From Sciscionella marina DSM 45152 (GTDB lineage Bacteria > Actinomycetota > Actinomycetes > Mycobacteriales > Pseudonocardiaceae): a DNA stretch of 64,000 nt. Positions 30,459-58,277 of the stretch are shown one piece after another. The position numbers and the translations under genes are program-made. Each line of letters begins with the position of its first letter. Within the stretch, counting starts at the first letter, position 1. The stretch is taken from the NCBI RefSeq assembly GCF_000379465.1, contig NZ_KB905380.1:310001-374000 (forward strand), read 5' to 3'. The notes beneath the pieces were generated by a model that was not told where the DNA came from, searched no databases, and saw nothing but the letters and a program-made list of their open reading frames with translations.

Positions 30459-30566
30459 GAGAGTTGTCCGAGACACGAGGATACAATTCGGCTGTTGTTC
30501 GAATCCGATGAATTCGGTGGAAATCCGATTGACGTGGTGAAAATCGAAAGACGGGGAGCCGAAAAG

Positions 30567-31016: not shown

Positions 31017-31938
31017 TCGCTCGTCGCAGGGCGATCACGGCGCGATCGCGTTCCGCGATCAGCTCCGCGATCGAACGCCCGTCCGCCTCCTCGAGGCAGC
31101 CGTCCACCATCCGGTCCCGCAGCTCCTTGGTGAGTTCGGGCGCGTCCAGCCGGGTCCACGGGGATTTCAGCGAGGGACCGAAATGATCGAGCATGTGGGC
31201 CATCCCGCCGTCCCCGCCCGCGAGGTGGAAGGTCAGGCACGGGCCCTGCACCGGCCAGCGCAGACCGGGGCCCTCGGTGATCGCGGTGTCGATCTGCTCG
31301 ACCGTGGCCTCCCCGTTGGCTACCATGTGCAGCGCCTCCCGCCACAGCGCCTCCTGCAGCCGGTTCGCGATGAATCCGGGGAGCTCGCGACCCATGGTGA
31401 TCACGGATTTGCCGACATGGCGGTAGAAATCCGAGGCCCAGTCCACGGCCCAGCGCTCGGACCGCTGCCCGCCGACCACCTCGACGAGCGGGATCAGGTA
31501 CGGCGGGTTGAACGGGTGGCCGACCACGAGCCTGCCCGGGTTCGCCGCCTTGGTCTGCATCTCGGTCATGCCGTACCCGGAAGTGGAGGAACCGATCACG
31601 ATGCCTTCGGGGGTGGCCGCCTCGATATCGGCGAGCAGCTTCTGCTTCAGCTCGAGTTCCTCGGGCCCGCTCTCCTGGACGAAGTCCGCGCCTTCGACAG
31701 CCTCGGCGAGTGTCGCGGTGAACCGCAGCCGATCCTGCGAAGCGCCCTGCGCGAGGCCGAGTTCGGTCAGCGCGGGCCAGGCGCGCTGCACGAGCAGCCG
31801 CAGGCGTTCCTCGGCACCCTCACCCGGGTCCCAGGCGAGCACGTCGAATCCCTTGGCCAGGAAGTGCGCGGCCCAGCCGCCACCGATCACCCCGGCCCCG
31901 ATGCACGCGATGGTGCGCGCCTGCTGTGGTTCAGCCAC
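30994..31938 (-). CDS. lcdH: L-carnitine dehydrogenase
   Basis: The 314-residue protein is of the 3-hydroxyacyl-CoA dehydrogenase family without CoA use. The NAD site is [25 protein letters not shown] at residues 14-38. The catalytic His is in [19 protein letters not shown], and the C-terminal part ([35 protein letters not shown]) is that of carnitine dehydrogenases, as I recall them. It oxidises L-carnitine to 3-dehydrocarnitine. The start overlaps the BKACE gene by eight bases and the end overlaps the thioesterase, which supports coupled expression of the three steps. Confidence 0.87.
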
Positions 31939-32821
31939 GATTGGTCCCCTTCAGTCCGAGCTGTTCGCGTGCTTCCGCCGCGGTGGCCACGGTGGCGCCG
32001 AGATCCTCGACGATCTCCACGGCGCGCTCCACGAGCTGTCCGTTGCTCGCCTTGACTCCCTTGGACAGGTACAGGTTGTCCTCGAGCCCGACCCGCACGT
32101 GCCCGCCGAGCAGCACCGACTGGGCGACCCAGCGCATCTGGTTGCGCCCGATCGCGAACGAGGCCCACTGCGCGTTCTCCGGGAGCAGCTCGACCATGGT
32201 CTGCAGTAGTGCGGGTTCCGCGGGTGCGCCGTACGGAATTCCCATGCACAGCTGGAAAAGCGGCGGCGGATCGATCAGCCCCTCGGCCACCATCTGCTTG
32301 GCGAACCAGAGCTGGCCGGTGTCGAAGATCTCCATCTCGGGCTTCACGCCGAGTTCCTGGATGCGCGCGGCACCCGTGCGCAGCATGTCCGGGGTGGAGA
32401 TGTAGAGCTGGCTGCCCTCGCCGAAGTTCAGCGAGCCGCAGTCGATGGTGCAGATGTCCGGAAGCAGTTCCTCGACGTGCGGCAGCCGCTGCAGGCCGTT
32501 GACCAGATCGGTGCCCTCGACCGGCTTGAGCGGGTCCTCCACGTCGATGAACAGGTCCCCGCCCATGCCCGCGGTCAGGTTGAGCACCACGTCCACGCCG
32601 CTTTCCCGCACCAGGCGGACGGTTTCGCGGTACAGCGCGACATCCCTGCTGCCCTGCCCGGTCTCGATATCGCGAACATGGATGTGCACGACCGCCGCGC
32701 CAGCATTGGCCGCCTCGATCGCCGAATCTGCGATCTGACGCGGGGTGACCGGAACCCGATCGCTCTTGCCGACCGTATCGCCCGCTCCGGTGAGCGCGCA
32801 GGTGATGATGGTGCTTGTCAT
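31931..32821 (-). CDS. BKACE / DUF849 beta-keto acid cleavage enzyme (3-dehydrocarnitine cleavage)
   Basis: The 296-residue enzyme has the zinc site His46 and His48 in VVHIHVRD and Glu247 in HVRVGLEDN, as in the lysine-degradation enzyme Kce. BKACE enzymes join a beta-keto acid with acetyl-CoA and split it. Next to carnitine dehydrogenase and a hotdog thioesterase the reaction is 3-dehydrocarnitine plus acetyl-CoA to betainyl-CoA plus acetoacetate. The first base of the stop of the regulator upstream overlaps its ATG (ATGA). The reaction is taken from pathway context, the fold from the motifs. Confidence 0.87.
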
Positions 32822-33696
32822 TCCTCGCCCTTCTCCTCGGCGCCGCCGAGGATGTTGTTCTCGATGTACTCCCGCAGCTGGCTGCGCATCGCCTCGACGG
32901 AGCTGTTCGGGTGCCCGGTGAGCACCTGCACGCCGAGCCCGTCGATCAGCGCGGTCAGCGCGGTGGCCGACCGGTCCGGGTCACCGGAGCGGAACAGCCC
33001 TTGCTCCTGGCCGCTCCGGATGGTCATCGCGATGGTGCGATAGCGCCGGTCGTAGGAGTCCCAGTACAGCGAACGCAGTGCCGGGTTGAGGGCGCTCTCG
33101 TTCCACACCTGCAGCCACACCGACCATTCCGCGTGCAGCAGACCCTCGAGCGGCAGCTGCAGCTCGACCAGCCGGTAGAGCCGTTCGTCCGCGCACTCGA
33201 TGGCGTGCAGCTCGGCGACCTGGCGGTCGAACGCGAGTTTCACATTGCGCCGCAAGGCATCGTTGAGCACATCGTCCTTGGTCGGGAAGTAGTAGTGGAT
33301 CCGTGCCGTGCTCGTCCCACAGGCCTTCGCGATGTCCGCGATCCGGACTTTGTGGTACCCACGCACGGCGATGAGCTCCCAGGCCTTCTCCAGGATCCGC
33401 CGCCGTGGCTCCTCCTTGGTGTCCGCGCGCGCCGGGATCGCCGGTACCGCGGCCACCGTTTTCGCCTCGTCGCTCCCGTTGAGCAACCAGTTGACCGTCA
33501 CTCCGCAATGCTCGGCGATCCGCACCAGTTCGTGTGCCGCGAACTGCCGCTTGCCGACGAGCGCCTTGGACAGCTTCGACTCGTCAAGACCGATCGCCTT
33601 GGCGAAATCCCGCTGCACTCCGGGCATCGCCTTGACGAGACCACGGACGCGCCCGGCCACGCCGTTCGATGAACTCGATCCTGCCGGGGAAGTCAC
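32818..33696 (-). CDS. Fusion regulator: N-terminal XRE HTH plus TetR HTH
   Basis: The 292-residue protein contains two DNA-binding domains. Residues 12-72 form a lambda-repressor-like HTH ([29 protein letters not shown]). After a proline-rich linker, residues 98-144 form a TetR HTH ([28 protein letters not shown]), and a TetR-type ligand domain follows. It is the first gene of the carnitine operon and lies next to an inverted repeat cluster at 33717-33748, its probable operator. A ligand such as carnitine or a CoA ester would release it. The linker lets one protein contact two half-sites; the purpose of the double HTH is not known. Confidence 0.85.
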
Positions 33697-44490: not shown

Positions 44491-46545
44491 TCAGCCGCCG
44501 CGTGGGGCGGGTACGTGTTCGGGGGCGGTCTCGTAGCGGACGAAGCGCCTGCGGAACCGCCCGGTGCCCGCGGTCATGGAGCGCAGTTCGGTCGCATACC
44601 GCACCAGTTCGCCCGCCGGGATCTCGGCGGTGATCACCGTCTGCCCGGCCTCCCCCGGCTCGGTGCCGAGCACGCGCGCCCGCCGGGAGGACAGGTCGCC
44701 GAGGATCGTGCCGAGGTAGTCCTCGCCCACGGTGATCGTGACCTCGTCCAGGGGTTCGAGCGCGGTGATGCCCGCGGTCTCGGCGGCCGCTTTGAGCGCG
44801 AGCGCACCGGCGGTCTGGAAGGCCGCGTCCGAGGAGTCCACGCTGTGCGCCTTGCCGTCCACCAGGGTCACCCGGATGTCGACCAGCGGTGCACCCGCGA
44901 TCCCGGTCTCCATCTGGGCGCGCACTCCCTTCTCCACGCTCGGCACGAACTGGCGCGGCACCGCCCCGCCGACGACCCGGTCCAGGAATTCGAAACCGGC
45001 TCCGCGTTCCAGTGGCTGCACCTCGATATCGCAGACCGCGTACTGGCCGTGCCCGCCGGACTGCTTGACATGCTTGCCGTGCCCGCCGGCCGCGGCGGCG
45101 AAGGTCTCCCTGGTGGCCACCCGCACCGGTTCGGTCTCCACCTCGGCGCCGCCCGAACGCAGCCTGCCGAGCACCACATCCGCGTGCGATTCCCCCATGC
45201 ACCACAGCACCAGCTGATGGGTCTCGGCATTGCGCTCCAGGCGCAGCGTCGGATCGCTTGCCGCGAGCCGGGAAAGGTTGCGCGCCAAGGCGTCCTCATC
45301 GCTGCGGGTCTTGGCGCCCACGGCGACCGGGAGCAGTGGTTCGGGCATCGGCCACGGCGCCATGCGGATGGGGTCCTCGGGCGCGGAGACGGTGTCCCCG
45401 GTCTCCGCGCTGGCCACCTTGGTCAGCGCGCACAGATCCCCGGCGACGCAGTACGGGATCTCGGTGAGGTGCGCCCCGAACGGGCTGTAGATGTGCGTGA
45501 CCCGTTCGTCGACGTCGTGGTCGGAGTGCCCGCGCTCGGCGAGGCCGTGCCCGCAGACGTGCACCGCGCCGTCCGGGCGCAGTGTCCCGGAGAACACCCG
45601 CACCAGGGAGACCCGGCCGACGTAGGCGTCCACCGTGGTGTGCACGACCTCGGCAGTCAGCGGCCCGGACGGATCGGCCGCGACCGGCTGGTGCATCGCC
45701 CCTTCCGGATCGGTCACCTCGGGAAGCGGATGCTCGAGCGGGGAGGGGAATCCCCTGGTGAGCAGGTCGAGCAGGACCTCGATGCCCGCTCCGGTGGCCG
45801 CGCAGGCGCCGAGCACCGGATAGAAGGAACCGCGCGCGATCGCCTTCTCCAGATCGGCGACCAACAGCTCGTGGTCCACCGGCGCGCCGTCCAGGTACCG
45901 GTCCATCAGGGTCTGGTCCTCGCTCTGCTCGATGATCGCCTCGATCAGTCCCGCGCGCGCCTCGCCGAATTCCGCGCGCTCCTCGGTGAGCAGGTCCACC
46001 AGGTTCTCCCCGTCCAGCAGGTGCAGCGCGGTCGTCCCGCCGAAGGCGCGGGCACACGCCTCGAGCTGGCCGGCGAAGTCCGCGCGCGGGTGATCCAGCC
46101 GGGCGAGCACGACCGCGCGCGGCATCCCCACCTCGGCGCACTCCTGCCACAGCGCCGCCGTCGCCTCGTCGAAGCCCTCACCGGCACCGACCACGAACAG
46201 CGCGGCGTCCGCGGCCCGCAGTCCGGCGCGCAGTTCCCCGGTGAAGTCGGCATAGCCGGGTGTATCGATCAGGTTGACCTTGACGTCCTCGTGGTGCAGC
46301 GAGGCCACCGCGAGTCCGACCGAATGCTGCTGGCGTACCGCGGCCGGATCGTGGTCACAGACCGTGGTCCCGTCCGGGACCGAACCCAGTCTCGGTACCG
46401 CCCCCTTTGCCGCGAGCAGCGCCTCCACGAGCGTGGTCTTGCCTGCCCCGGAGGGACCGACCAGCACCACGTTCCGTATCCGCCCCGGATCGTCGACCGC
46501 GGCGCCCAACTGGGCGGCCGCCGCACCGCCGTTCTTCGTACCCAT
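44491..46545 (-). CDS. fusA2: Elongation factor G-like protein EF-G2
   Basis: The 684-residue protein is colinear with EF-G: G1 GPSGAGKT (residues 30-37), G3 DTPGYADF, then domains 2-5. The His that activates GTP hydrolysis in EF-G (DTPGH) is Tyr98, and G4 NKxD is ARLD (148-151). Mycobacterial EF-G2, from memory, binds GTP but does not hydrolyse it on the ribosome and is dispensable. The role is not known. It begins at an ATG after AAAGGTG. The stop abuts the convergent kinase stop (TGATCA). Confidence 0.88.
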   Translation of the reverse strand: MGTKNGGAAAAQLGAAVDDPGRIRNVVLVGPSGAGKTTLVEALLAAKGAVPRLGSVPDGTTVCDHDPAAVRQQHSVGLAVASLHHEDVKVNLIDTPGYADFTGELRAGLRAADAALFVVGAGEGFDEATAALWQECAEVGMPRAVVLARLDHPRADFAGQLEACARAFGGTTALHLLDGENLVDLLTEERAEFGEARAGLIEAIIEQSEDQTLMDRYLDGAPVDHELLVADLEKAIARGSFYPVLGACAATGAGIEVLLDLLTRGFPSPLEHPLPEVTDPEGAMHQPVAADPSGPLTAEVVHTTVDAYVGRVSLVRVFSGTLRPDGAVHVCGHGLAERGHSDHDVDERVTHIYSPFGAHLTEIPYCVAGDLCALTKVASAETGDTVSAPEDPIRMAPWPMPEPLLPVAVGAKTRSDEDALARNLSRLAASDPTLRLERNAETHQLVLWCMGESHADVVLGRLRSGGAEVETEPVRVATRETFAAAAGGHGKHVKQSGGHGQYAVCDIEVQPLERGAGFEFLDRVVGGAVPRQFVPSVEKGVRAQMETGIAGAPLVDIRVTLVDGKAHSVDSSDAAFQTAGALALKAAAETAGITALEPLDEVTITVGEDYLGTILGDLSSRRARVLGTEPGEAGQTVITAEIPAGELVRYATELRSMTAGTGRFRRRFVRYETAPEHVPAPRGG

Positions 46546-46627: not shown

Positions 46628-47254
46628 TCACCCCTTCCGTTCGGCGGCCAGGTGCTCGCTTCCGACGATGTGCCGGTAGGTGAGCGCGCTCGCGGTCTTG
46701 CCGTCCCGCGCCCGCAGTGCGGCGAGGATCTCGGCGTGCTGCGCGGCGGATTCGGCGTGCGGGCGGACCACCTTCGGCCCGTCCGGCATGGACTGCCACA
46801 ACAGCCGCATCAGCGAGGTGAGCATCGGGCTGCGCGCCGCCGAGTAGATGTGGAAGTGGAAATCCCGGTTGAGCCCGCCGTAGCGCGGATCGTCGTCGGT
46901 GAGACCGGCGATCTCGGCGTTGATCCGTTCGATCTCGGCGAGTTCCACCTCGGTGACCCGTTCGGCGGCCAGCTCCGCGCCGAGGGATTCCAGTGCGGCC
47001 CGGATCAGATAGTTCTCCTCGGTGGCGTCCAGCGCGGACTCGGCGACCGTGGCCCCGCGGTGCGTGTCGGAACGCACCAGCCCCTCGGATTCCAGGCGGC
47101 GCAGGGCTTCGCGTACCGGGGTCTGGCTCACGTTCAGCCGCCCGGCGAGATCACGCTGGCGCAGCGGCTGGCCCGCGGTGAGCTCCCCGGTCAGGATCAG
47201 CTCCCGCAGCATGCTTGTGACCAGTTCGGATTTAGAAGTGTACTGCGGTTGCAC
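46628..47254 (-). CDS. GntR family regulator (FadR/FCD subfamily)
   Basis: The 208-residue protein has the GntR HTH (LTAGQPLRQRDLAGRLNVSQTPVREALRRLESEGLV) and the FCD domain with its metal-binding histidines (NRDFHFHIYSAARSPML and AESAAQHAEILAAL). FCD proteins bind sites of the form TGGT..ACCA and respond to organic acids. It is the last gene of the molybdenum-enzyme operon and overlaps the MFS gene. Its probable operator is TGGTATACCA at 54556-54565. Confidence 0.87.
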   Translation of the reverse strand: MQPQYTSKSELVTSMLRELILTGELTAGQPLRQRDLAGRLNVSQTPVREALRRLESEGLVRSDTHRGATVAESALDATEENYLIRAALESLGAELAAERVTEVELAEIERINAEIAGLTDDDPRYGGLNRDFHFHIYSAARSPMLTSLMRLLWQSMPDGPKVVRPHAESAAQHAEILAALRARDGKTASALTYRHIVGSEHLAAERKG

Positions 47255-48605
47255 GTTTTCCTCCCGTTTCCCGCTCGTCGAGCACCCGTCCCCTGGTCTC
47301 CGGCCCGAAGCAGGCCAGCCAGCCGAGTGCGAGCAGCACGAACGCGCCGGTGACGATGAAGGTAACGGTCAGCCCGAGCACCGGCCAGAGCAGGCTGCCG
47401 AACACGAGCGGAACCACGGCCGCTGTCACCCTGCTCGCCGCGGACGCCCAGCCGAAACCGGTACCGCGCAGGCTGGTCGGGTACAGCTCGGGCACGTAGC
47501 ACTGCATCGCGGGGATGGTGAACTCGATCGCGAATCCGAAGCCGATCAGCCAGGGCAGCGCCGGGCCCTCGGCGGTGAACGCGACGGCGAACCCGACCAG
47601 CGCGAAGGCCGCGAGCACCCCGCTGACCAGGATCACCGGTTTGCGGCCGAGCACATCCACCAGCCAGGCGGACAGCGCGGTGCCCGCGATCCCGACCGCG
47701 GTCATGGCCGTGGCGCCGAGGAACGCCGCGACGGTGCCCGCCCCGTTGCGGGACAGCAGGCTCGGCAGCCAGGTGATCGTGCCGTAGTACTCCAGCAGCA
47801 CCGCGACGAACAGCAGCCAGGCCGCGAGGGTGAGCTTCCAGTCGAATCGCCAGATCGCGGTGAACCGGGCGAGCATGCCGCGCACGCTTTCCGTGACACG
47901 GCCGGGATTCGGCGCGACCCGCCACGGACCGGGGTTCGCGCCCGTCGCGCGCACCAGGCCCTCGATCACCGTACTCGCCTCGCGCGCGCGTCCCTTGTGC
48001 GCCAGGAACAGCGGGGATTCCGGGACCCCGCGGCGCACGAAGAACACCAGCAGCGCGGGCACCACCATCAGCGCCAGCAGCACCCGCCAGCTGACCACGG
48101 TGACCAGGGCGCTGCTGACCAGTCCGCACAGGCTCGCCCCGATCGGCCACCACAGGTTCAGCGCGGTGAGCACCCTGCCGCGCACCGCGCGCGGGGTGAA
48201 TTCGGCGACCATCGCGTAGTCCACCGGGACACAGCCACCGAGCGCGAGCCCGGCGAGGAACCGGGTCACCAGCAGGATCGGGTAGTTCGGGGCGAGTGCG
48301 CCCAGTCCGGAGCACAGCGCGAAACCGAGCAGGGTGAGGCTGAACGCGCGTTTGCGGCCGATCCCGTCGGCGAGGCTGCCCCAGCCGAAGGCGCCGATCG
48401 CCATGCCCGCGAATCCGGCGGTGGCGAACAGGCCGAGTTCGGTCGCCCCGAGCCGCCACTGCCGTTCGAGCAGCGGGAGCAGATAGCCGGTGAGCGAGAC
48501 ATCCCAGGCGTCGAAACCGAACCCGAGCCCGCCGAGCAGGAAGACCTTGCCCTGCACCCGCCAGCGCCACGGCAGGTCCGCGACCACCTGTTCACCGGTG
48601 CGCAT
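47232..48605 (-). CDS. MFS transporter (aromatic acid/sugar-acid importer-like)
   Basis: The 457-residue protein has 12 predicted membrane helices. Motif A is GWGSLADGIGRKRAFSLTLL, and FLAGLALGGCVPVDYAMVAEFTPRAVRGR is the TM4-5 motif of metabolite:H+ symporters. It probably imports an organic acid or related compound that the molybdenum enzyme acts on. It overlaps the large subunit upstream by 14 bases and the GntR gene by 23 bases. Confidence 0.87.
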   Translation of the reverse strand: MRTGEQVVADLPWRWRVQGKVFLLGGLGFGFDAWDVSLTGYLLPLLERQWRLGATELGLFATAGFAGMAIGAFGWGSLADGIGRKRAFSLTLLGFALCSGLGALAPNYPILLVTRFLAGLALGGCVPVDYAMVAEFTPRAVRGRVLTALNLWWPIGASLCGLVSSALVTVVSWRVLLALMVVPALLVFFVRRGVPESPLFLAHKGRAREASTVIEGLVRATGANPGPWRVAPNPGRVTESVRGMLARFTAIWRFDWKLTLAAWLLFVAVLLEYYGTITWLPSLLSRNGAGTVAAFLGATAMTAVGIAGTALSAWLVDVLGRKPVILVSGVLAAFALVGFAVAFTAEGPALPWLIGFGFAIEFTIPAMQCYVPELYPTSLRGTGFGWASAASRVTAAVVPLVFGSLLWPVLGLTVTFIVTGAFVLLALGWLACFGPETRGRVLDERETGGKRATAVHF

Positions 48606-50859
48606 CGGCCAGCTCCACGATCCGCGCCGGGGTCAGCGGCAGTCCGCCCAGATCCTCCGGCACCCCGAGGGCATCGCGCACCGCGTTGGCGATCGCCCCG
48701 CCTGCCGCGGTGATCCCGCCCTCGCCCGCTCCCTTGGCGCCGAGCGGATTGTCCGGGGATGGTGCATCCTCGGTGATCAGCGTCTGTACCCGGTCCGGGA
48801 CCTCCTCGGCGGTGGGCAGCAGATAGTCCATGAAGGTGGTCGCCTGCGGCTGGCCCGCCTCATCGTAGTGGAACTGCTCGTACAGCGCCCCGCCGATGCC
48901 CTGCGCGACCCCGCCGAGCAGCTGCCCCTCGACCAGGTCCGGGTTGATCGCCCTGCCCACCTCGTAGGCGACCAGATAGCGCAGCACCCGCACCGCACCG
49001 GTTCCGGTGTCCACCTCCACCAGCGCCACGTGCATGCCGTACGGATAGGTCATGTGATCCACGGTGAACCGCCTGCGCGCGGCCAGCCCCGGCTCGATAG
49101 CGTCCCGCCCGGCCTCGGCTGCCACATCGGCCAGCGTCACCGAACGCTCCGGAAACCCGGGCACAGCAAGGGTTCCCGCCTCCAGGAGCAGTTCCTCGGG
49201 TGCGCAGCCGAGCAGTGTGGCGGCGATCCCGCGGGCCTTGGCGGCGACCGCGTCGGCGGCGAGGCGCACCGCGGAACCGGCGACCACGGTGGACCGGCTC
49301 GCCCAGGAGCCCAGTCCGAACGGCTGCAGATCGGTGTCCCCGTTGATCACCGTGACCGCGGTGTCCGGCAGCGACAGCCGTTCCGCGGCGATCTGGGCGA
49401 GCACGGTCTCCACGCCCTGCCCGAGCGAGGTCGCCCCGGAGTGCACGGTGACCCGGCCGGAGGGGTGCAGCAGCACATCGGCCGTCTCGTGCGGGCCGAG
49501 GCCGCTCTTCTCCAGGAAGTAGGCGAATCCGTAGCCGCTGACCCGGCCCTCGGCGCGCAGTCGGTCCCGTTCCGCTTGCCAGGGCTCGGTGTGCGCGAGG
49601 GCGTTCTCCAGCAGTCCCGGGTAGTCGCCCGCGTCCAGCACCATCTCGGTGTTCAGCGCGGAATAGGGCCGCCGGTGCGGGATCTCCCCTGCGCGCAACA
49701 GATTCCGCCTGCGCAGCTCGGCGCGGTCGATGCCGATCCGGTCCGCGGCGACGTCGAAGAGGTGTTCACGGGCGAAGGTGCCCTCATAACGGCCCGGTCC
49801 CCGATAGGTGCCGCACGGGGTCTTGTTGGTCAGCGCGACCGCGATGCGCGCGTGGAACGCGGGAATGCGATAGGGACCGGGAAGCATGGTCACGGTCAGC
49901 TCCGGGACCATGAAGCCGTGCGTGCGCAGATAAGCGCCGTTGTCGTGACACACCTCGTCGGTGAGCGCGAGCAGCACCCCTTCGGCGTCGAAGGCCGCGG
50001 CGATCCGGTGTTCCTGTTGCCGCGAATGATTCAGCGCGACCAGGTTCTCCGCGCGGTCCTCGGTCCAGGTGACCGGCGCGCGCAACCGGGTGGCCAGCAG
50101 CGCGACGATCGCGTCCTCGGGGTAGAACTCCCCGCGCGCGCCGAATCCACCTCCGGTGTCCATGGCGTGCAGGTGGATCCGTTCCTCGGGCAGTCCGAGC
50201 ATGCGCGCGAGCACACCCCGGTTGAACACCGGGACCTTGGTGGCGCCCCAGATCTCGAGCTTCCCGGTGCCCGCCTCGTATTCCGCGGTGAGCCCGCGCG
50301 GTTCCAGTGGCACCGCGGCATGCCGGCCCACCTCCAGGCGGGCACGCACCACGTGCGCCGCGCCCGCGAAGGCCGCGTCCACTCCGCCGTAGCCGATCTC
50401 GATCGTGCCGACCGGTGCGCATTCCCGGGCATCGAGGACCGCGGGCAGCTCCGCGTACTCCACGCGCACCAATTCGGCGGCGTCCTCCGCGGTGTAGGCG
50501 TCCTCGGCGACCACCGCGGCGACCGGCTGGCCGACATAGCGCACGGAATCGGCCGGCAGCACCGGTTGCAGCGCCGAGGCGGGCTCATCCCCGCGCGGCA
50601 GGCGGATCGGGATCGGGCCGAGCTCCGCGCAGTCCGCCCCGGTCAGTACCGTGTGCACGCCCGGTGTGCCGAGCGCCTCGCGAGCGTCGATCGCCTCGAT
50701 CCGCGCGTGTGCCACCGGTGCGCGCACCATGCGCACGTGCAGCGCGCCCGCCCGGCGTACATCGTCGGCGAACCGGCCGCGCCCGGTGAGCAGCCGGGTG
50801 TCCTCGTGCCGCCCGACCCGCGCCCCGACGCCGGTCTGTCGTCCCGCGAGGACCGTCAT
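48592..50859 (-). CDS. Xanthine dehydrogenase-family molybdenum subunit, copy 2
   Basis: The 755-residue subunit starts at MTVLAGRQTGVGARVGRHEDTRLLTGRGRF. It binds molybdopterin-cytosine dinucleotide in the CoxL-like fold: DTGGGFGARGEFYPEDA, the active-site loop CGTYRGPGRYE, the cofactor segment TSLGQGVETVLAQIAAERL and the catalytic Glu in GAKGAGEGG. The loop differs from the AYRCSFR loop of true CO dehydrogenase, so it hydroxylates an aldehyde or an N-heterocycle. The ATG overlaps the 2Fe-2S subunit stop. It is paralogous, not identical, to the subunit two genes upstream. Confidence 0.87.
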   Translation of the reverse strand: MTVLAGRQTGVGARVGRHEDTRLLTGRGRFADDVRRAGALHVRMVRAPVAHARIEAIDAREALGTPGVHTVLTGADCAELGPIPIRLPRGDEPASALQPVLPADSVRYVGQPVAAVVAEDAYTAEDAAELVRVEYAELPAVLDARECAPVGTIEIGYGGVDAAFAGAAHVVRARLEVGRHAAVPLEPRGLTAEYEAGTGKLEIWGATKVPVFNRGVLARMLGLPEERIHLHAMDTGGGFGARGEFYPEDAIVALLATRLRAPVTWTEDRAENLVALNHSRQQEHRIAAAFDAEGVLLALTDEVCHDNGAYLRTHGFMVPELTVTMLPGPYRIPAFHARIAVALTNKTPCGTYRGPGRYEGTFAREHLFDVAADRIGIDRAELRRRNLLRAGEIPHRRPYSALNTEMVLDAGDYPGLLENALAHTEPWQAERDRLRAEGRVSGYGFAYFLEKSGLGPHETADVLLHPSGRVTVHSGATSLGQGVETVLAQIAAERLSLPDTAVTVINGDTDLQPFGLGSWASRSTVVAGSAVRLAADAVAAKARGIAATLLGCAPEELLLEAGTLAVPGFPERSVTLADVAAEAGRDAIEPGLAARRRFTVDHMTYPYGMHVALVEVDTGTGAVRVLRYLVAYEVGRAINPDLVEGQLLGGVAQGIGGALYEQFHYDEAGQPQATTFMDYLLPTAEEVPDRVQTLITEDAPSPDNPLGAKGAGEGGITAAGGAIANAVRDALGVPEDLGGLPLTPARIVELADAHR

Positions 50860-51356
50860 GGCCGCGAGGTCCCTGTGTCCGCGGCCCCCGCCCGTTTTCC
50901 GGCCACATCCTCGATCGCGTCCACGATGCCCTGATATCCGGTGCAACGGCACAGGTTCGAGGCGACGACCTCGCGGATCTCCGCCCTCGTCGGCGCGGGA
51001 TTCTCCGCGAGGAACGCCTCGGCGAGCATCAGGAATCCCGGGGTGCAGAAACCGCACTGCAGCCCGTGGTGTTCGGCGAAGGCCCGCTGCAGATCGGAGA
51101 GTTCCCCGCCGTCGGCGAGCCCCTCGACCGTGCGCACCTCGCGGCCGTCGGCCTGCACGCCGAACACCAGGCAGCCGCGCGCGGGCACGCCGTCCACGAG
51201 TACCGTGCACGCCCCGCAGATGCCGTGCTCACAGCCCAGATGGGTGCCGGTGTAGCCGAGCTCGCGCAGCAGATCGGCCAGGGTGTGCCGGGATTCGGTC
51301 AGCACCTCGTGTTCGGTGCCGTTGACGGTGATCGTGATCAGGTGCGGATCGTGCAT
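50856..51356 (-). CDS. Xanthine dehydrogenase-family 2Fe-2S subunit
   Basis: The 166-residue protein has the plant-type cluster GCEHGICGACTVLVDG and the second cluster CGFCTPGF plus CRCTGYQGIV. It passes electrons from the molybdenum site to FAD. The ATG at 51356 is followed by HDPHLITITVNG. It overlaps both large subunits (18 bases with the upstream, 4 with the downstream one), so the same electron-transfer subunit probably serves both. Confidence 0.92.
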   Translation of the reverse strand: MHDPHLITITVNGTEHEVLTESRHTLADLLRELGYTGTHLGCEHGICGACTVLVDGVPARGCLVFGVQADGREVRTVEGLADGGELSDLQRAFAEHHGLQCGFCTPGFLMLAEAFLAENPAPTRAEIREVVASNLCRCTGYQGIVDAIEDVAGKRAGAADTGTSRP

Positions 51357-53626
51357 GCGCCCTCCAGTGCTCGCTGGATCGTCTCGGCCCGGATGGGGAT
51401 CTCGCTGATCCGCACCCCGGTGTGCGACAGCGCATCGTTCACCGCGTTCAGCACCGCGGCCGGCGCGCCGATCGTGCCGCCCTCCCCCATTCCTTTCGCC
51501 CCGGTCTCGTTGAACAGGCACGGGGTCTCCAGGTGGTGGATCTCGATGTCCGGGATCTCTTGCGCGGTCGGGGCGAGGTAGTCCATCAGGCTCGCCACCT
51601 CCGGCTGGCCGCTTTCCTCGTAGTGCAGCCGTTCGTAGAGCGCGGCCCCGATTCCCTGCGCCACCCCGCCACGCACCTGACCGTCCACAATGGAGGGATT
51701 GAGCACGGTTCCGCAGTCCTCGACCACCACATAGCGCGGGATGCGCACCGCGCCGGTTTCCGGATCGAGTTCCACCACGACCCCGTGCGTGGCATTGGAG
51801 AAAGTGCCCGAACCGGAGACGTCGAAACCGGCCTGCACCTCGAGACCGAACTCCACTCCCTTCGGTAACCGGTGTGCCTGGAAATGACTCAACCGGGCCA
51901 GATCGGCGAGTGTGATGGAGTTGTCCCTACCTAGCGCTTTTCCGTCGGAGAGCTCGATCTCCTCCTCGGTGACCTCGAGCAGGTGCGCGGCGATCCGCCG
52001 GATGCGGTCGGCGAGCCGGTCCGCGGCCGACCGCACCGCGCTGCCGCCGATCATCGCCGAGCGGCTGCCGAAGGTCCCCCAGCCGTACGGGGTGGCTTCG
52101 GTGTCCCCCTGCCGCACCCGCACCTGGTCCGGGTGCAGCCCGAGCCGGTCCGCGGTCACCTGGGCGAGCGTGGTCTCGTGTCCCTGGCCGTGTGCGGAGG
52201 TCCCGGTGATCACGGTGACCGTGCCGCTGGGGTCCATTCGCGCGTTCGCGATCTCGTAGCCGGGGGTGAACTCCATCTTCCTGGCCGCGAACGCCTCGGT
52301 GCCGTATCCGGTGCGCTCGTTGAAACAGGCGAACCCGATACCGCGCAGCGGCCCGCGTTCCTCGCCCGCGAGCAGCTCCGCGCAGCGATCCAGGGATTCG
52401 GTGTAGGAACCGGGATCGTAGGTGATCCCGTTGACCCCGGTGTAGGGGAACTCGGTGATCAGGTTCCGCCTGCGCACCTCGACCGGATCGATGCCGAGCA
52501 CTCGCCCGGCCTCGGTCATCAGCCCTTCCATGACCGCGACGATCTGCGGGCGGCTCACCCCGCGGTAGGGCGCGGTCGGCGGCTTGTTCGTGGCGATTCC
52601 GCGCGCCCGCGCCCGATAGCGCGGCACCCGGTAGGCCCCGGGCAGTTCGGTCGCGGCCATCAGCGGTTCCACCCCGCTGGTGAACGGGAAAACCGAGTAC
52701 GCCCCGACATCGCAGCGGATGTCCGCGTCCAGGGCCAGCAACCGGCCCTGCTCGTCGAACGCGGCCCGCACCAGGTGCCGCTGCTCGTGCCCGTGGAAGC
52801 TCGCGGTCAGATTCTCCACCCGGTCCTCGGACCAGGCGATCGCACGTCCGGTGCGGTACGCGGCCGCGGCGACCGCGATCTCCTCGCGCCCGACCACGCA
52901 TTTGAGCCCGAACCCGCCGCCCACGTCCGGGGCGAGCACCCGGACCTGTCGTTCGGGCAGCCACAGGGACTCGGCGATCGCGGTGCGCACCTGGTGCGGC
53001 ACCTGGGTGGAAACCGTGACCACCAGCTGTTCATCGCGCTCATCCCATTCGGCGAGGCAGGCCCGCCCTTCCATGGGCAGCGCGGCCACCCGGGCGCTGC
53101 GGAATTCCAGCTCCACGGTGTACGCGTCCGCGAAGACCCGGTCGATGTCCGGATCCTCGAACGGGAACACGTCCAGGAAGGTGTTCGCGGTGAGCCCCTC
53201 GTGGATGGGTTCCCCGGCCAGCGCCGCGCACATCGAGGCCAGCGCCTCCAGCGGTTCCTGGGCCACCGCGATCAGCTCGGCCCCGTCCTCGGCGGTATAG
53301 GCGTCCTCGGCGAGCACGATCGCGAACGGTTCCCCGGCGTAGCGGACCCGGTCGCGGGCCAGCACCGGCATCGGGGTGGAGACGAACTCCGGGCGGTGCA
53401 GCGTGGCGAGAACATCGGCACAGCCGAGGGATTCGGCATCGAAGACCGCGTGCACCGCGCGCGTGTCCGGTGCGCGCACCGCCCCGATCCGGGCCGCGGC
53501 GACGGGGCTGCGCGCGAAGGCCGCGTGCAGCAATCCAGTGCGGCGCACATCCGCGGTGAACCGGCCGCGCCCGCGCAGCAGCCGGTGATCCTCCTTGCGC
53601 GCCAAGGCTTTGCCGACCCAGGTCAT
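51338..53626 (-). CDS. Xanthine dehydrogenase-family molybdenum subunit, copy 1
   Basis: The 762-residue subunit starts at MTWVGKALARKEDHRLLRGRGRF, set by family alignment; the longer ORF to 53806 begins upstream without domain similarity. Motifs are DVGGGFGLKCVVG, the loop TAPYRGVSRPQ, SAHGQGHETTLAQVTADRL and GAKGMGEGG with the catalytic Glu. The active loop PYRGVSR differs from that of copy 2 (TYRGPGR), so substrates may differ. A 76-bp spacer separates it from the FAD subunit gene upstream. Confidence 0.87.
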   Translation of the reverse strand: MTWVGKALARKEDHRLLRGRGRFTADVRRTGLLHAAFARSPVAAARIGAVRAPDTRAVHAVFDAESLGCADVLATLHRPEFVSTPMPVLARDRVRYAGEPFAIVLAEDAYTAEDGAELIAVAQEPLEALASMCAALAGEPIHEGLTANTFLDVFPFEDPDIDRVFADAYTVELEFRSARVAALPMEGRACLAEWDERDEQLVVTVSTQVPHQVRTAIAESLWLPERQVRVLAPDVGGGFGLKCVVGREEIAVAAAAYRTGRAIAWSEDRVENLTASFHGHEQRHLVRAAFDEQGRLLALDADIRCDVGAYSVFPFTSGVEPLMAATELPGAYRVPRYRARARGIATNKPPTAPYRGVSRPQIVAVMEGLMTEAGRVLGIDPVEVRRRNLITEFPYTGVNGITYDPGSYTESLDRCAELLAGEERGPLRGIGFACFNERTGYGTEAFAARKMEFTPGYEIANARMDPSGTVTVITGTSAHGQGHETTLAQVTADRLGLHPDQVRVRQGDTEATPYGWGTFGSRSAMIGGSAVRSAADRLADRIRRIAAHLLEVTEEEIELSDGKALGRDNSITLADLARLSHFQAHRLPKGVEFGLEVQAGFDVSGSGTFSNATHGVVVELDPETGAVRIPRYVVVEDCGTVLNPSIVDGQVRGGVAQGIGAALYERLHYEESGQPEVASLMDYLAPTAQEIPDIEIHHLETPCLFNETGAKGMGEGGTIGAPAAVLNAVNDALSHTGVRISEIPIRAETIQRALEGACTIRT

Positions 53627-53702
53627 GCCTCGCCTCCTCGCCCGGTGCGCTGCTGGCTCGACGGCACTCGCTGCGATGCTTCCGTACTCCTCGCCTTCGG
53701 GT

Positions 53703-54548
53703 TCATGCGCCGGCCTCGAGGCAGGCGCGGCGCAGCAGGGTCGCGGTGAGGGTGCGGCGGTATCCGGCGCTCGCGTGGATGTCCTCCGGTGGTTCGAGTT
53801 CGGCAACCCCGGCCCGCGCCGCCTCGGCGAACGCCCGCTCGGTCAGTTCCGCTCCCGCCAGCGCCTGCTCCACCGCGGGCAGCCGCTGCGCCGCCGAGCC
53901 GACCCCGCCTGCAGCGACCCGGGCCGCGCGGCAGTGTCCGCCCTCGGTCTCCAGCGCCACCGCGACCACCACGAGCCCGAAATCCCCTTGACGTTGCGCG
54001 AATTCGGTGAGCGCGGCCCGCGGGGCCGGGCTCGGGAACACCACCTCGGTGATCAGCTCGCCGGGTTCGGCCGCGGTGCTCAGGAATCCGTGGAAGAACT
54101 CCGCGGCGGGCACCGTGCGCTGCCCGCGCGGGCCGCGCAGCACGATCCGCGCGTCCAGCAGCACCGCGAGCACGCACCATTCGGCGGTCGCGTCCCCGTG
54201 CGCGAGGCTGCCGCCGATGGTGCCCCGCGAGCGGATCGGATAGTGCCCGATCCAGCGCGCGGCCCGGGAGAGCACTCCGAACCCACCGGGCAGCGTGGCC
54301 GTCTCCACCGTCCGGTGCGTGGTCAGCGCGCCGATTCGCAGCCCGTCCCCGACCGGGCGCAGATAACGGAGTTCGTCGAGCCGGGCGAGGTCGATGAGCG
54401 CACTCGGGCGGGCGAGCCGGAAATTCATCATCGGCACCAGACTCTGCCCTCCGGCAAGGGGTTTCGCGTCCTCACCGAGTTCGCCGAGCAGTTCCAGCGC
54501 ATGCTCCAGATCGTGGGCCCGGTGATACTCGTAGCTCGCTGGCTTCAC
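53703..54548 (-). CDS. Xanthine dehydrogenase-family FAD subunit
   Basis: The 281-residue subunit has the FAD-binding segments LAGGQSLVPMMNFRLARP and SRGTIGGSLAHGDATAEW and the CO-dehydrogenase flavoprotein C-terminal domain. It is the first gene of the operon. I chose the GTG at 54548 because homologues begin with KPASFEYHRP-like residues and because the ATG at 54566 lies inside the GntR palindrome. No ribosome site is visible, so the mRNA may be leaderless. Its products, with the 2Fe-2S and a molybdenum subunit, make a heterotrimer. Confidence 0.85.
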   Translation of the reverse strand: MKPASYEYHRAHDLEHALELLGELGEDAKPLAGGQSLVPMMNFRLARPSALIDLARLDELRYLRPVGDGLRIGALTTHRTVETATLPGGFGVLSRAARWIGHYPIRSRGTIGGSLAHGDATAEWCVLAVLLDARIVLRGPRGQRTVPAAEFFHGFLSTAAEPGELITEVVFPSPAPRAALTEFAQRQGDFGLVVVAVALETEGGHCRAARVAAGGVGSAAQRLPAVEQALAGAELTERAFAEAARAGVAELEPPEDIHASAGYRRTLTATLLRRACLEAGA

Positions 54549-54554
54549 AAGTAT

Positions 54555-54566
54555 ATGGTATACCAT
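54555..54566. promoter_or_regulatory. GntR/FCD operator palindrome between two divergent operons
   Basis: ATGGTATACCAT is a perfect 12-bp palindrome with the core TGGTATACCA, the form bound by FadR/FCD GntR proteins (TGGT..ACCA). It lies 6 bp from the acyl-CoA ligase ATG and 7 bp from the FAD-subunit GTG. A bound protein would block both starts. The gene at 46628-47254 encodes a suitable regulator. Confidence 0.7.
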
Positions 54567-54571
54567 TTTTC

Positions 54572-56038
54572 ATGATGGATGTGTCCCGGCTCACCGAGAC
54601 CGACGGCGGACTCGCCAGGATGCACGGTGCCACTGCTGCTACCCGCAAGGATCATCCCGCCGTGCGGCTGCCGGACGAGAACGGCCGGTTCACCACGCTC
54701 AGCCACGGGGAACTCGACCACCGGAGCGCCCGGGTCGCCGGGTGGTTCCACGCCCAGGGCATCTCGAAGGGCGAACGGGTCCTGTTGTGCGCACCCAATT
54801 CCACCGTGTTCGTGCTCGCCTATCTCGCGCTGCACCGGATCGGCGCGGTCATCGTGCTGGCGAACCCGGCCTACACCGACGCGGAACTGCGGCACCTGTA
54901 CATCGACAGCGGGGCCCGAGCGGCGATCCTGCCGGACGACCGCGAACTCGACACCCCGCTGTGGGTCAGCGCCGAACAGGCACTCCCGGCAGGTGATCCG
55001 GTGCCTGCGGTGTGGGCCGGGCCGGACGACCCCGCCGTACTCGCGTACACCTCCGGCACCACGGGAATCCCCAAGGGTGTCGTGCTCACCCAGGCGAACC
55101 TGTACTCCTCGATCCGCGCAGTGCTGGCGGCCTGGCGGTGGTCGGCCAGGGATGTGCTCGTGCACGCGCTGCCGCTCTCGCACCAGCACGGGCTCGGCGG
55201 GCTACACGCGACCCTGCTCGCCGGGTCCACCGCGGTGCTGCTCCCCCACTTCGATCCGGCCGAGTTCACCGCGCACGTCGTCGAGTCCCGGGCGACGGTG
55301 CTGTTCGGGGTGCCCGCGATCTACCGGCGCCTGCTCGCCGAGCCGGATCAACTGACCACGCTCGCCCGGGTCCGCCCCCGCCTGGTGGTCTCCGGGTCGG
55401 CCCCGTTGGACGCCGCGGACTGCGTGGCACTCGGCGAGGTGTTCGGCCAGATCCCGCTGGAGCGCTACGGCACCACGGAAAGCGGGCTGAACGTGGCGAA
55501 TCCGTATGCGGGCGAACGCTGTCCGGGCACCGTCGGGCTTCCGCTGCCCGGGGTGCGGCTGCGGCTGCTCGAGGACTCCGAGATCGCGGTCGCCGGTCCG
55601 CAGGTGTTCCCCCGGTACTGGAACCGCCCGGAGACGAGCGAAGAGGCGTTCACCGAGGACGGTTTCTTCCGCACCGGCGATCTCGGCGAGTTCGATCGGC
55701 ACTCCGGTCATCTGCGGATCAGCGGGCGGAAGAAGGAATTGATCATCAGCGGCGGGCTCAACGTCTACCCGCGCGAGGTCGAGCTCGCCATCGAGGCGCA
55801 TCCGGATGTCGCCGAGGCCGGGGTCGCCGGGGTGGCCTCGGCGCGCTGGGGCGAGGAGGTCACCGCCTGGGTCGTGCCGCGCCCGGGAACCCGGCCGGAC
55901 GAGGCCGGACTGCTCGCGCACGTGGCGGCGAGGCTCGCCAAATACAAGTGCCCGAAACACATCCATCTCGTGCCGGACCTGCCGCGCAACAGCATGGGCA
56001 AGCTGATGCGGCGGGCGCTCGGCGCGAAGAACCAGTGA
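54572..56038 (+). CDS. Acyl-CoA ligase (AMP-dependent synthetase)
   Basis: The 488-residue protein has the AMP-binding motif LAYTSGTTGIPKGVV, the second motif YGTTESGLN, GDLGEFDRHSGHLRISGRKKELI and the Lys of PRNSMGKLMRR at the end. It activates a carboxylic acid to its CoA thioester with ATP. It may begin at 54572 or 54575. It starts 6 bp after the operator, so the mRNA may lack a leader. The SDR gene follows 10 bp downstream after AAGGAG. Substrate type is not readable. Confidence 0.87.
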   Translation: MMDVSRLTETDGGLARMHGATAATRKDHPAVRLPDENGRFTTLSHGELDHRSARVAGWFHAQGISKGERVLLCAPNSTVFVLAYLALHRIGAVIVLANPAYTDAELRHLYIDSGARAAILPDDRELDTPLWVSAEQALPAGDPVPAVWAGPDDPAVLAYTSGTTGIPKGVVLTQANLYSSIRAVLAAWRWSARDVLVHALPLSHQHGLGGLHATLLAGSTAVLLPHFDPAEFTAHVVESRATVLFGVPAIYRRLLAEPDQLTTLARVRPRLVVSGSAPLDAADCVALGEVFGQIPLERYGTTESGLNVANPYAGERCPGTVGLPLPGVRLRLLEDSEIAVAGPQVFPRYWNRPETSEEAFTEDGFFRTGDLGEFDRHSGHLRISGRKKELIISGGLNVYPREVELAIEAHPDVAEAGVAGVASARWGEEVTAWVVPRPGTRPDEAGLLAHVAARLAKYKCPKHIHLVPDLPRNSMGKLMRRALGAKNQ

Positions 56039-56048
56039 AGGAGCAGGA

Positions 56049-56846
56049 ATGGATCTCGGACTGTCCGGCAAGGTCGCACTGATCACCGGGGCGAGCAAGG
56101 GAATCGGGCTGGAGACGGCCCGGCTGCTCGCCGCGGAGGGCTGCGATCTCGCGCTCACCGCGCGCACCGCGGCCGATCTGGAACGTGCCGCCTCGGATGT
56201 CGCCGCCGCGAGCGGGCGCCGGGTGCTCCCGCTGACCGGGGACATGAGCGTCACCGAGGACGTGGAATCCTGCGTGCGCGCGGCGATCGCCGAGTTCGGG
56301 CACATCGACATCCTCGTCACCTGCGCGGGAAGCTCGCCGGGCGGGCTGCTCGAGGATCTGGGCGACGAGGACTGGCTGGCCAGTCTTTCGCTGAAGTTCC
56401 TCGGCTATGTGCGTTCGGTGCGCGCGGTCGTCGGGCACATGCGCGAGCGCGGCGAGGGCAGCATCGTGCTCGTGGTCGGCAACGACGGGCTCAAGCAGAG
56501 CTACTGGGAACTGACCGCGGGTGCGGCGAACGCGGCCGACATCAACTTCGCCTCCTCGATCGCCGAGCAGTACGCCCCGCACGGAATCCGGGTGAACACG
56601 GTCAATCCCGGCCCGGTCGCCACGGATCGCTGGGACGGGCTCGAAACAGCGCTCGCCAGGGACAAGGGCATCGACAAGGACCAGGCCCACCGGCTCGCGC
56701 TGCGCTCCCTGCCGCTGAACCGGATCTGCACACCGGCCGAGGTGGCGAACGTGGTGGCGTTCACCGCCTCCCCGCGCGCAAGCTATCTGGTCGGGGCGAA
56801 CATTCCGGTGGACGGCGCCCAGCGCAAGGCGATCATGGATACCTGA
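56049..56846 (+). CDS. SDR-family protein without the catalytic Ser-Tyr-Lys
   Basis: The 265-residue protein has the NAD(P) motif TGASKGIG (residues 13-20) and the NAG-like segment TCAGSSPGG. At the positions of Ser, Tyr and Lys stand Gly144, Ala157 and Asn161 (SYWELTAGAANAADINF). The conserved end RVNTVNPGPV is present. It may therefore bind NAD(P) but not act as a standard dehydrogenase. A divergent subgroup with such a segment exists in other bacteria. It sits between an acyl-CoA ligase and a sugar kinase. Confidence 0.8.
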   Translation: MDLGLSGKVALITGASKGIGLETARLLAAEGCDLALTARTAADLERAASDVAAASGRRVLPLTGDMSVTEDVESCVRAAIAEFGHIDILVTCAGSSPGGLLEDLGDEDWLASLSLKFLGYVRSVRAVVGHMRERGEGSIVLVVGNDGLKQSYWELTAGAANAADINFASSIAEQYAPHGIRVNTVNPGPVATDRWDGLETALARDKGIDKDQAHRLALRSLPLNRICTPAEVANVVAFTASPRASYLVGANIPVDGAQRKAIMDT

Positions 56847-56858
56847 TGGAATGGCGCC

Positions 56859-58277
56859 ATGGGGCCCGCACGCTATCTGGGTGTCGATATCGGGACCACC
56901 GCGACCAAGGCGATCGCCTTCGACGCGGCGGGTTCCGCGCTCGGTTCGGCCCGGTCCGGTTACCAGATCGACCGGCCCGGGCAAGGCCGCGCCGAGCAGG
57001 ATCCGCGCATCTGGCTGCGCGCCGTGGACGACTGCGTGGCCGAACTGGCCGTGAACCTGGATCTCGGCACCGTTGCCGGGATCGGGGTGACCGGTCAGGT
57101 CAACACCCATCTGCTCCTCGACGAGCACCGTGAACCGCTGCGCCCCGCCCTGCTGTGGCAGGACGTGCGCGCGGCGGCCGAAGCGGCCGAGCTCGACCTG
57201 GACGCTTCCAGCCCGGTGCCCCGGGCGCGGTGGCTCGCCCGTGCGGAACCGGAGCACTGGGCGGGAGCGCGCTGGCTGCTGCTGCCCAAGGACTACGTGA
57301 ACGCCTGGCTCACCGGGGTGGTCGGCAGCGACCCGCTCGCCTCGGTCAAGATCACCGATACGGCCGGCGGGTACCTGCCGGTGGTGGACCGGGCCGCCGG
57401 GCTGCGCGAACGGCTTCCCCCGCTGTGTGCCCCGCACGAACCTCTCGGCGAGCTGCGCGCGGACTGGCACGGCATCCCGGCGGGCGCGAACGTGGCTACC
57501 GGGACCATGGACGCCTACTGCGATGTGCTCGGCGCCGGACTGAGCGCCCCGGGAACGGGTTTCGTCATCCTCGGCACCACCGCGGTGGCCGGGGCGCTGG
57601 GCACCCGACAGACGAGCACGGATCCGGTCGGCGTGCCCGGACTGGTGACCTTCCCGCCCTATCGCGGCCGGGTGGTGCACGCTGGGCCGACCCAGTCCGG
57701 TGGCGACTCGCTGCGCTGGTGGGCGCGGGCCAGCGGGCACTCGGCCGAGGATGTGCTCGCCGCGGCCGAACAGGCCGAACCGGGATCCGGCGGGGTGGTC
57801 TTCGCCCCGCACCTGCTCGGCGAGCGCGCGCCCCTGTGGGACAGCGAGGTGCGCGCCTGGTTCACCGGAGTACACGCGGGAACCGGATTCGCGGAACTGA
57901 GCCGGGCGGTACTCGAAGGGGTGGCGTATTCGGTGCGGGACATCCTCGACGTGGTGCGCGCGGTCACCCCGGTCGGGGAACTCGCGCTGTGCGGGGGCGG
58001 CACCCGAAGCCCGCTGTGGCGCCGGATCCTCGCCGATGTGACCCAGTCCAGGATGCGCAGGGTGGACACCGCGGACACGAGCGTGCACGGGGCCGGGACG
58101 CTCGCCGCGGCCGCGCACCAGGGAGCCGATCCCTGGGAGCGCGCCGCCGGTTTCGGCCGCGCGGGCGCGGTGCTCGAACCCGATCCCGGACCGGCCGAAC
58201 GCTACGGCGAACTGTTCGCGGTGTACCGGGAGACCTACGAGGCCCTGCGCGGGGTGCATGCCCGCATGGCGCGCTGA
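56859..58277 (+). CDS. FGGY-family carbohydrate kinase
   Basis: The 472-residue protein has the ATPase fold motif LGVDIGTTATKAIAFDAAG at the N-terminus, GVTGQVNTHLLLDE and the C-terminal ATP site LALCGGGTRSPLWRRILADVTQ. The catalytic Asp is in GTMDAYCDVLGAG. It phosphorylates a sugar or polyol with ATP, as xylulose or erythrulose kinases do. The C-terminal half is like xylulokinase. The start ATG is 12 bp after the SDR stop. A sugar kinase beside an acyl-CoA ligase is unusual. Confidence 0.87.
   Translation: MGPARYLGVDIGTTATKAIAFDAAGSALGSARSGYQIDRPGQGRAEQDPRIWLRAVDDCVAELAVNLDLGTVAGIGVTGQVNTHLLLDEHREPLRPALLWQDVRAAAEAAELDLDASSPVPRARWLARAEPEHWAGARWLLLPKDYVNAWLTGVVGSDPLASVKITDTAGGYLPVVDRAAGLRERLPPLCAPHEPLGELRADWHGIPAGANVATGTMDAYCDVLGAGLSAPGTGFVILGTTAVAGALGTRQTSTDPVGVPGLVTFPPYRGRVVHAGPTQSGGDSLRWWARASGHSAEDVLAAAEQAEPGSGGVVFAPHLLGERAPLWDSEVRAWFTGVHAGTGFAELSRAVLEGVAYSVRDILDVVRAVTPVGELALCGGGTRSPLWRRILADVTQSRMRRVDTADTSVHGAGTLAAAAHQGADPWERAAGFGRAGAVLEPDPGPAERYGELFAVYRETYEALRGVHARMAR

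Follow-up and report, generated by a model that had tools for sequence, protein, structure and literature searches.

A molybdenum hydroxylase unit with two unlike catalytic subunits in Sciscionella marina and its putative role in pyridinecarboxylate breakdown through CoA thioesters

The soil actinobacterium Sciscionella marina DSM 45152 carries, within a 64,000-nucleotide stretch of contig NZ_KB905380.1 (positions 310,001 to 374,000, hereafter the window), a minus-strand unit of six full open reading frames (ORFs) that encodes intact FAD, molybdenum-cofactor (Mo1), 2Fe-2S (FeS) and second molybdenum-cofactor (Mo2) subunits of a molybdenum hydroxylase, together with a major facilitator superfamily (MFS) transporter and a GntR regulator. 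With a probability of roughly 0.55, these genes form part of a catabolic unit in which a pyridinecarboxylate would be converted to its 2,6-dihydroxy form by successive hydroxylation, activated with coenzyme A (CoA) and opened without an oxygenase. Isonicotinate, passing through citrazinate, is the favoured substrate at somewhat less than even odds, and nicotinate, passing through 2,6-dihydroxynicotinate, is a more doubtful second choice; isonicotinate is only slightly preferred, and both the substrate and the sharing of subunits are unproven. The parts are of known kinds, and their arrangement and route are largely unassigned. If true, this proposal would supply the genes and a regulator site of a pyridinecarboxylate pathway joining two molybdenum hydroxylations to CoA activation, along with 26 genomes that carry it. 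It would also place two unlike catalytic subunits on one electron chain, which bears on the evolution of modular enzymes, and would aid in predicting which actinobacteria degrade pyridine pollutants, such as isoniazid residues.

Gene calls were made with a custom gene caller and cross-checked with tblastn. Both large subunits possess complete Ald_Xan_dh_C, MoCoBD_1 and MoCoBD_2 Pfam domains, and the domains of the FAD, FeS, MFS and GntR (with FCD) proteins are likewise complete. Mo1 (51338-53626, minus strand; nearest structure in the PDB 1t3q, QorL, E 6.6e-150) and Mo2 (48592-50859, minus; nearest structure 7dqx, 6-hydroxypseudooxynicotine dehydrogenase, E 7.2e-194) differ in the active-site loop, which reads APYRGVSR in the former and GTYRGPGR in the latter (mostly YRAPGR in Mo2 relatives). 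Both retain the catalytic glutamate motif, KGMGE in Mo1 and KGAGE in Mo2, as well as the GGGFG and GQG loops; this alignment agrees with an earlier first-pass annotation of the window, which had set PYRGVSR against TYRGPGR and noted the glutamate in both. A count by eye gives eight cysteines, spaced as usual, in the FeS subunit (50856-51356, minus; Fer2 and Fer2_2), and the FAD (medium) subunit (53703-54566, minus; FAD_binding_5 2.1e-44, CO_deh_flav_C 1.5e-21) is likely to start at GTG 54548 or ATG 54566. Judged by its molybdenum-cofactor domains, FAD subunit, eight-cysteine 2Fe-2S protein and catalytic glutamate, the enzyme would thus belong to the molybdenum hydroxylase (xanthine oxidase) family. 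The six genes had been described as overlapping in one minus-strand unit at 46628-54548, and their identity, place, strand and completeness hold. The FeS gene shares 19 bases with Mo1 and 4 with Mo2; the Mo2-MFS and MFS-GntR junctions touch or overlap depending on the choice of start. However, FAD (ending at 53703) and Mo1 are separated by a 76-base gap if Mo1 starts at 53626, and the unit extends beyond those coordinates into a divergent plus-strand half with a ligase and a short-chain dehydrogenase/reductase (SDR), which begins at 54572, 5 bases past the longest FAD start; an FGGY kinase comes next.

The two large subunits are 41% identical (33-43% across the two-Mo group) and were placed apart in a phylogeny that the first-pass annotation had suggested as a check. 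In this tree of 57 proteins, which samples the window plus 12 of the 23 two-Mo loci defined below, Mo2 grouped with KdhC, the large subunit of the 6-hydroxypseudooxynicotine dehydrogenase from pAO1, and Mo1 with QorL (quinoline 2-oxidoreductase) and NdhC; several paralogs from the window genome form long branches whose placement is unsure. The pAO1 record labels NdhC a '2,6-dihydroxypyridine 3-hydroxylase subunit', and ndh is named nicotine dehydrogenase in passages of two papers (PMC4548258, PMC5239795). Because of the 41% identity and the different clades, Mo1 and Mo2 are not recent duplicates. A frameshift or a lost cofactor residue in relatives, which had been named as potentially fatal to a two-enzyme reading, was not borne out either: the stop codons flagged in four relatives (one each) lie outside the conserved coding frame, at or past its ends, so that broken subunits can be dismissed, and the motifs are kept. 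The kinship of Mo1 to QorL and NdhC, that of Mo2 to KdhC (from the hydroxylase that acts second in nicotine breakdown) and the co-evolution of the subunits favour the earlier suggestion, and the pair is best read as two probable enzymes acting on successive substrates.

The FAD-Mo1-FeS-Mo2 block was found in 26 of the genomes examined, window counted, comprising 18 loci designated L075-L092, five designated L129-L133, the window, the split contigs of genome G040 and L176, which lies on a short contig. Given this recurrence, obtained by the search for the same gene order that had also been proposed, the arrangement is not due to chance. A Mo2 ortholog (E below 1e-260) was present in 20 of 297 genomes of the family, all of which also encode Mo1, whilst 397 genomes of the order (partly the same as the family set) yielded five more window-like two-Mo loci and 394 of the class yielded one. 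Neighbourhoods were compared across the 23 loci L075-L092 and L129-L133, each spanning 13-20 kb, with genes located elsewhere in a genome scored as absent. Every one of these 23 single-locus cases contains exactly one FAD and one FeS gene beside two distinct catalytic subunits, as had been claimed for the window. Their recurrent neighbours are an alpha/beta-hydrolase (22), a GntR regulator (22), an SDR (21), CoxG (21, one of them weak at 31%), a ligase (18), a crotonase-family protein (17), an amidase (16) and an MFS transporter (15); ligase and amidase were called as one fused frame in 10 of the 23, including L084 and L091. A family-III CoA-transferase is found in four of the five loci that lack the ligase (L129, L131, L132 and L133; Pfam checked in L129 and L131). 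As ligase and CoA-transferase are unrelated enzymes, this swap is the best evidence for a CoA thioester in the pathway. The window ligase (54572-56038, plus strand) is AMP-forming and of the malonyl-CoA synthetase kind (nearest structure 4fuq, a malonyl-CoA synthetase, E 3.8e-90; PRK07514 4.3e-119, under cut-off), and the nearest NCBIfam name for the L131 transferase is succinate-glutarate CoA-transferase, again under cut-off. These affinities to malonyl-CoA synthetases and short-dicarboxylate enzymes would suit a diketo, imide-like acid or a ring-opened diacid more than a plain aromatic acid. The SDR (56049-56846, plus; adh_short 6.9e-44) has homologs of 61-74% identity in the related loci.

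In the proposed pathway, Mo1 would hydroxylate the first carbon adjoining the ring nitrogen and Mo2 the second, yielding a 2,6-dihydroxypyridinecarboxylate, and both would hand their electrons to one and the same 2Fe-2S and FAD subunits. The ligase would turn this product, possibly in a diketo, imide-like form, into a CoA thioester, a step that the family-III CoA-transferase would perform in some genomes. A beta-oxidation-like set, consisting of the SDR, the crotonase-family protein, the alpha/beta-hydrolase and often the amidase, would then reduce or hydrate the ring and open it without an oxygenase. The window and 22 of its 23 relatives combine two Mo subunits with a CoA-activating enzyme, the gene content that a citrazinate-CoA route for isonicotinate would call for. 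The first-pass annotation knew of no assigned pathway for this combination, which is not quite right: two molybdenum hydroxylations to 2,6-dihydroxy products are mentioned, in passages of one paper, for isonicotinate in Mycobacterium sp. INA1, where molybdenum enzymes form the 2,6-dihydroxy product as proposed here, and for nicotinate in Bacillus niacini (PMC4548258). Genes of the INA1 pathway were not found in the literature searched, and the open-access literature (subscription papers were outside its scope) yielded neither a gene assignment for an oxygenase-free CoA-thioester route nor an isonicotinate gene cluster. A pathway of two molybdenum hydroxylations with CoA activation was reportedly described for isonicotinate, on biochemical grounds, by Kretzer and co-workers three decades ago. 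Isonicotinate would agree with the CoA step, and nicotinate with the kinship of Mo1 and Mo2 and the mutual exclusion with the nicotinate-type clusters described below.

Regulation may tie the two divergent halves together. The GntR/FCD regulator (46628-47254, minus; PF00392 and PF07729) is predicted to repress both from the 12-base palindrome ATGGTATACCAT at 54555-54566, a candidate operator that lies between them. The 8.5-Mb genome has two exact copies, and the second is at C12:101629-101640, between an alpha/beta-hydrolase and a CoxG relative, and in G040 the palindrome occupies the same two places. Relatives of this pair lie inside the two-Mo cluster in other genomes, the window-genome counterparts of the cluster hydrolase (60% identical) and CoxG being on another contig, so the palindrome would link two missing cluster genes to the window unit. 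If a single mismatch is tolerated, three places in the window genome compare with two for a backwards control, and two in G040 with none. The related sequence TGGTATACCA has 39 exact occurrences among 25 two-Mo segments totalling 477,009 bases; the 19 single-Mo loci, totalling 368,237 bases, have none even when one mismatch is accepted. Of the 23 two-Mo loci, 20 contain a site with at most one mismatch, the exceptions being L077, L078 and L080. Within the window, up to two mismatches give one match; since at least one match also arises in 22 of 100 shuffles, the window site alone proves nothing. A search for other inverted repeats upstream of FAD gave none of use. The regulator gene and a palindrome common to its presumed targets point to a GntR/FCD unit, with GntR probably binding at ATGGTATACCAT. 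The stricter form ANNTGGTATACCANNT gave 12 sites in 19 two-Mo genomes against three in the backwards control; eight of these are in clusters and the other four (a single one in G018 and three similar ones in genus g28) are by unrelated-looking genes, and no further regulon members were accepted from them. Near the remote hydrolase/CoxG pair, G040 (L150) encodes molybdopterin oxidoreductase, PrpF-family, nitrilase-type and metabolite:H+ symporter-type genes. The PrpF, nitrilase and symporter genes are suggestive of a tricarboxylate product, but they occur in one genus only and all fall under the NCBIfam cut-offs, and this reading was rejected. Judged by eye and from its gene sizes, the corresponding segment of the window genome (L149) resembles L150, and its contig ends in a nitrilase-type fragment.

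The ancestry of the electron-carrying subunits was addressed with a phylogeny of concatenated FAD and FeS sequences (32 rows, among them the window plus 12 of the 23 two-Mo loci; three long branches). The two-Mo loci grouped with single-Mo nicotinate-type loci, L138/L139 and L134 (support 96), separate from Kdh and its relatives (98). Mo2, though KdhC-like, is therefore without Kdh-type partners, and the nearest kin of the window FAD and FeS subunits appear to be those that accompany Mo1 in the nicotinate-type clusters with a single Mo subunit. L138 and L139 are distant two-Mo loci with the same four-gene block at 43-59% identity and a different neighbourhood, and perhaps serve a different pathway with the same four subunits. 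They branch outside the remaining two-Mo loci in both the Mo1 and the FAD+FeS trees, a position that would fit an old two-Mo block from which Mo2 was lost in the nicotinate-type clusters. A carbon-nitrogen hydrolase and a putative cyclase lie near L138, and a CoxG relative is present in both. Two further loci, L134 and L177, lack Mo1 but encode FAD, FeS and a Mo2-type subunit, and so hold the module's other half.

The nearest functional parallel is the pAO1 nicotine pathway of Paenarthrobacter nicotinovorans, in which two molybdenum hydroxylases, NdhABC and KdhABC, likewise attack the same pyridine ring. Identity to KdhC is 45% for window Mo2, and identity to NdhC is 38% for Mo1; unlike the window unit, each pAO1 enzyme has its own FAD and FeS genes. 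Despite the position of Mo2 beside KdhC, the unit is probably not a KDH of the nicotine pathway, as its FAD and FeS subunits are not Kdh-type and neither the window proteins nor the tested two-Mo representatives gave a match to DHPONH or dhpH. Nicotine-type clusters are represented by L135, L136 and L137, which are KdhC-type loci with a relative (59-60%) of 2,6-dihydroxypseudooxynicotine hydrolase. Compared by description only, the ndrB1B2B3B4 genes of Sphingomonas melonis TY, stated in part of a published account to be required for conversion of nicotine to 6-hydroxynicotine, comprise one iron-sulfur subunit gene and three genes annotated as xanthine dehydrogenase subunits (PMC5239795).

A number of observations weigh against the pathway proposed here. 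The nearest relatives of Mo1 point to nicotinate. Isonicotinate is rare in nature, and the INA1 CoA ligase that reportedly acts on citrazinate (the citrazyl-CoA step) is a lead only. Locus L083 (genome G113) contains no ligase, CoA-transferase, SDR or conserved hydrolase, and the hydrolase was not found in the whole of G113. An amidase ortholog was not found in the window genome, where nine matches have identities of 36-48% and the best reaches E 3.2e-64 at 41%. The strict 16-base palindrome ANNTGGTATACCANNT is present in only 8 of the 19 two-Mo genomes. With respect to the electron chain, NdhA/B stand beside Kdh in the FAD+FeS tree (support 91) and not beside the partners of Mo1, and the FAD and FeS subunits of L134 fall in the same group as those of the two-Mo loci (87, a placement left open), so that either catalytic subunit may have been the first to own the chain. 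Mo2 could also be served by its own FAD/FeS pair encoded elsewhere.

The strongest competing substrate is nicotinate, for which Mo1 would form 6-hydroxynicotinate and Mo2 2,6-dihydroxynicotinate before thioester formation, in place of the 2,5-dihydroxypyridine route of sister clusters; we consider this possible though doubtful. It draws in part on the single-Mo relatives: among the 297 family genomes, 20 are of the two-Mo type, 57 encode a Mo1 relative (56-60% identity) and no Mo2 ortholog, and none has both, as expected of alternatives (three candidates scored per genome; a hand count with no statistical test). The 19 single-Mo loci looked at, from 18 of the 57 genomes and one Embleya plasmid, are all nicotinate-type clusters; of the 18 genome loci, 16 encode a relative of 2,5-dihydroxypyridine dioxygenase and 17 the FAD monooxygenase. 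In the representative L098, the products match 2,5-dihydroxypyridine 5,6-dioxygenase (7cn3, 1.3e-86), maleate isomerase (4fq7, 5.5e-77) and isochorismatase-family hydrolases (amidases), including 3uao, a maleamate amidase; its FAD monooxygenase is kin to decarboxylative FAD hydroxylases, with 6-hydroxynicotinate 3-monooxygenase lower in the matches (3e-47). This gene content suggests, by context, that the kin of Mo1 are nicotinate hydroxylases. The nicotinate-type clusters have Mo1, FAD, FeS, MFS and CoxG relatives in common with the two-Mo unit (their MFS proteins are 50-54% identical to the window type), and their Mo1 is sister to, or nested within, two-Mo Mo1. An origin of these clusters inside the two-Mo group is seen in the best tree, but a single two-Mo Mo1 clade was not rejected (p-AU 0.283). 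The Bacillus niacini precedent also favours nicotinate, as does KdhC, the nearest characterised relative of Mo2, which hydroxylates a 3-substituted 6-hydroxypyridine.

However, the nicotinate-type clusters have a single Mo subunit, and in the two-Mo unit a ligase or CoA-transferase, SDR, crotonase and hydrolase replace their monooxygenase, dioxygenase, isomerase and amidase. Homologs of the dioxygenase, maleate isomerase and FAD monooxygenase occur in none of the 23 two-Mo neighbourhoods, nor is any gene there labelled as NicF- or NicD-type; two-Mo clusters thus lack the genes of the 2,5-dihydroxypyridine nicotinate route. The Bacillus niacini cluster, compared by description only, has nicF- and nicE-like genes, unlike the window. 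In addition, Mo1 differs between two-Mo and single-Mo clusters at eight fixed residues, two of them in the cofactor-adjacent GGGFG and GQG loops (V235M and G482S), which would allow different substrates and is no proof of them. To our knowledge, no CoA route has been described for nicotinate.

A second alternative concerns the architecture of the enzyme and not its substrate: Mo1 and Mo2 may sit in one mixed complex with a common FAD and FeS, the first product being handed to the second site. The distances of Mo1 and Mo2 are correlated at r = 0.969, with nearly equal rates (ratio 1.07; 276 pairs, 24 genomes), the tightest of 15 pairs compared, and the gene order is fixed with close or overlapping junctions. 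Co-inheritance in one operon would yield the same correlation, however, and the other pairs reach 0.83-0.95; across the four subunits, SDR and GntR, r is 0.83-0.97 (the pairs are not independent), as expected for genes moving together. In L015, an Acidimicrobiia contig, a Mo2-like gene (48%) lies next to an FeS gene and a divergent Mo1-like gene (32%) has a second, so that the FeS gene is not common to both. Such a complex is unlikely, and a single two-site particle feeding the oxygenase-free CoA-thioester route is slightly less likely still.

Least probable is a different substrate such as CO, an aldehyde, a purine or another N-heterocycle, since, although NCBIfam ranks subunits of CO dehydrogenase and of glyceraldehyde dehydrogenase first, the scores of 556.5 and 586.1 are far under the cut-off of 950 (the best names likewise fail for an aldehyde or xanthine dehydrogenase), the AYRCSFR loop of form I aerobic CO dehydrogenase CoxL is replaced by PYRGVSR and TYRGPGR, the nearest structures in the PDB belong to hydroxylases of quinoline and hydroxypyridine, and both the aromatic-acid-type transporter and the kinship to nicotinate clusters argue otherwise.

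Among the remaining genes, the MFS transporter (47232-48605, minus) is of the aromatic acid:H+ symporter type (best NCBIfam TIGR00895, 1.6e-66, under cut-off). The FGGY kinase directly after the SDR (56859-58277, plus; FGGY_N and FGGY_C) is a doubtful member of the pathway, there being no FGGY-labelled gene in other two-Mo neighbourhoods; the G040 contig stops at the SDR. EF-G2 (44491-46545, minus), which lies beyond GntR and passes its own NCBIfam cut-off (1060 against 890 bits), was excluded from the unit; among related neighbourhoods it is labelled next to the two-Mo unit in G040/Sciscionella only. Single-Mo clusters with an AMP ligase, an SDR and a crotonase-family gene were observed in L113, L114 and L142, including on an Aminobacter plasmid, with Mo1-like proteins at 43-45% (L113, L114), and CoA-type molybdenum hydroxylase units are on this basis wider than the two-Mo form. 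Elsewhere in the window (25521-33660, minus), ORFs judged by eye resemble ABC transporter, thioesterase-like, 3-hydroxyacyl-CoA dehydrogenase-like and DUF849/BKACE-like genes, which suggests a carnitine-breakdown-like operon.

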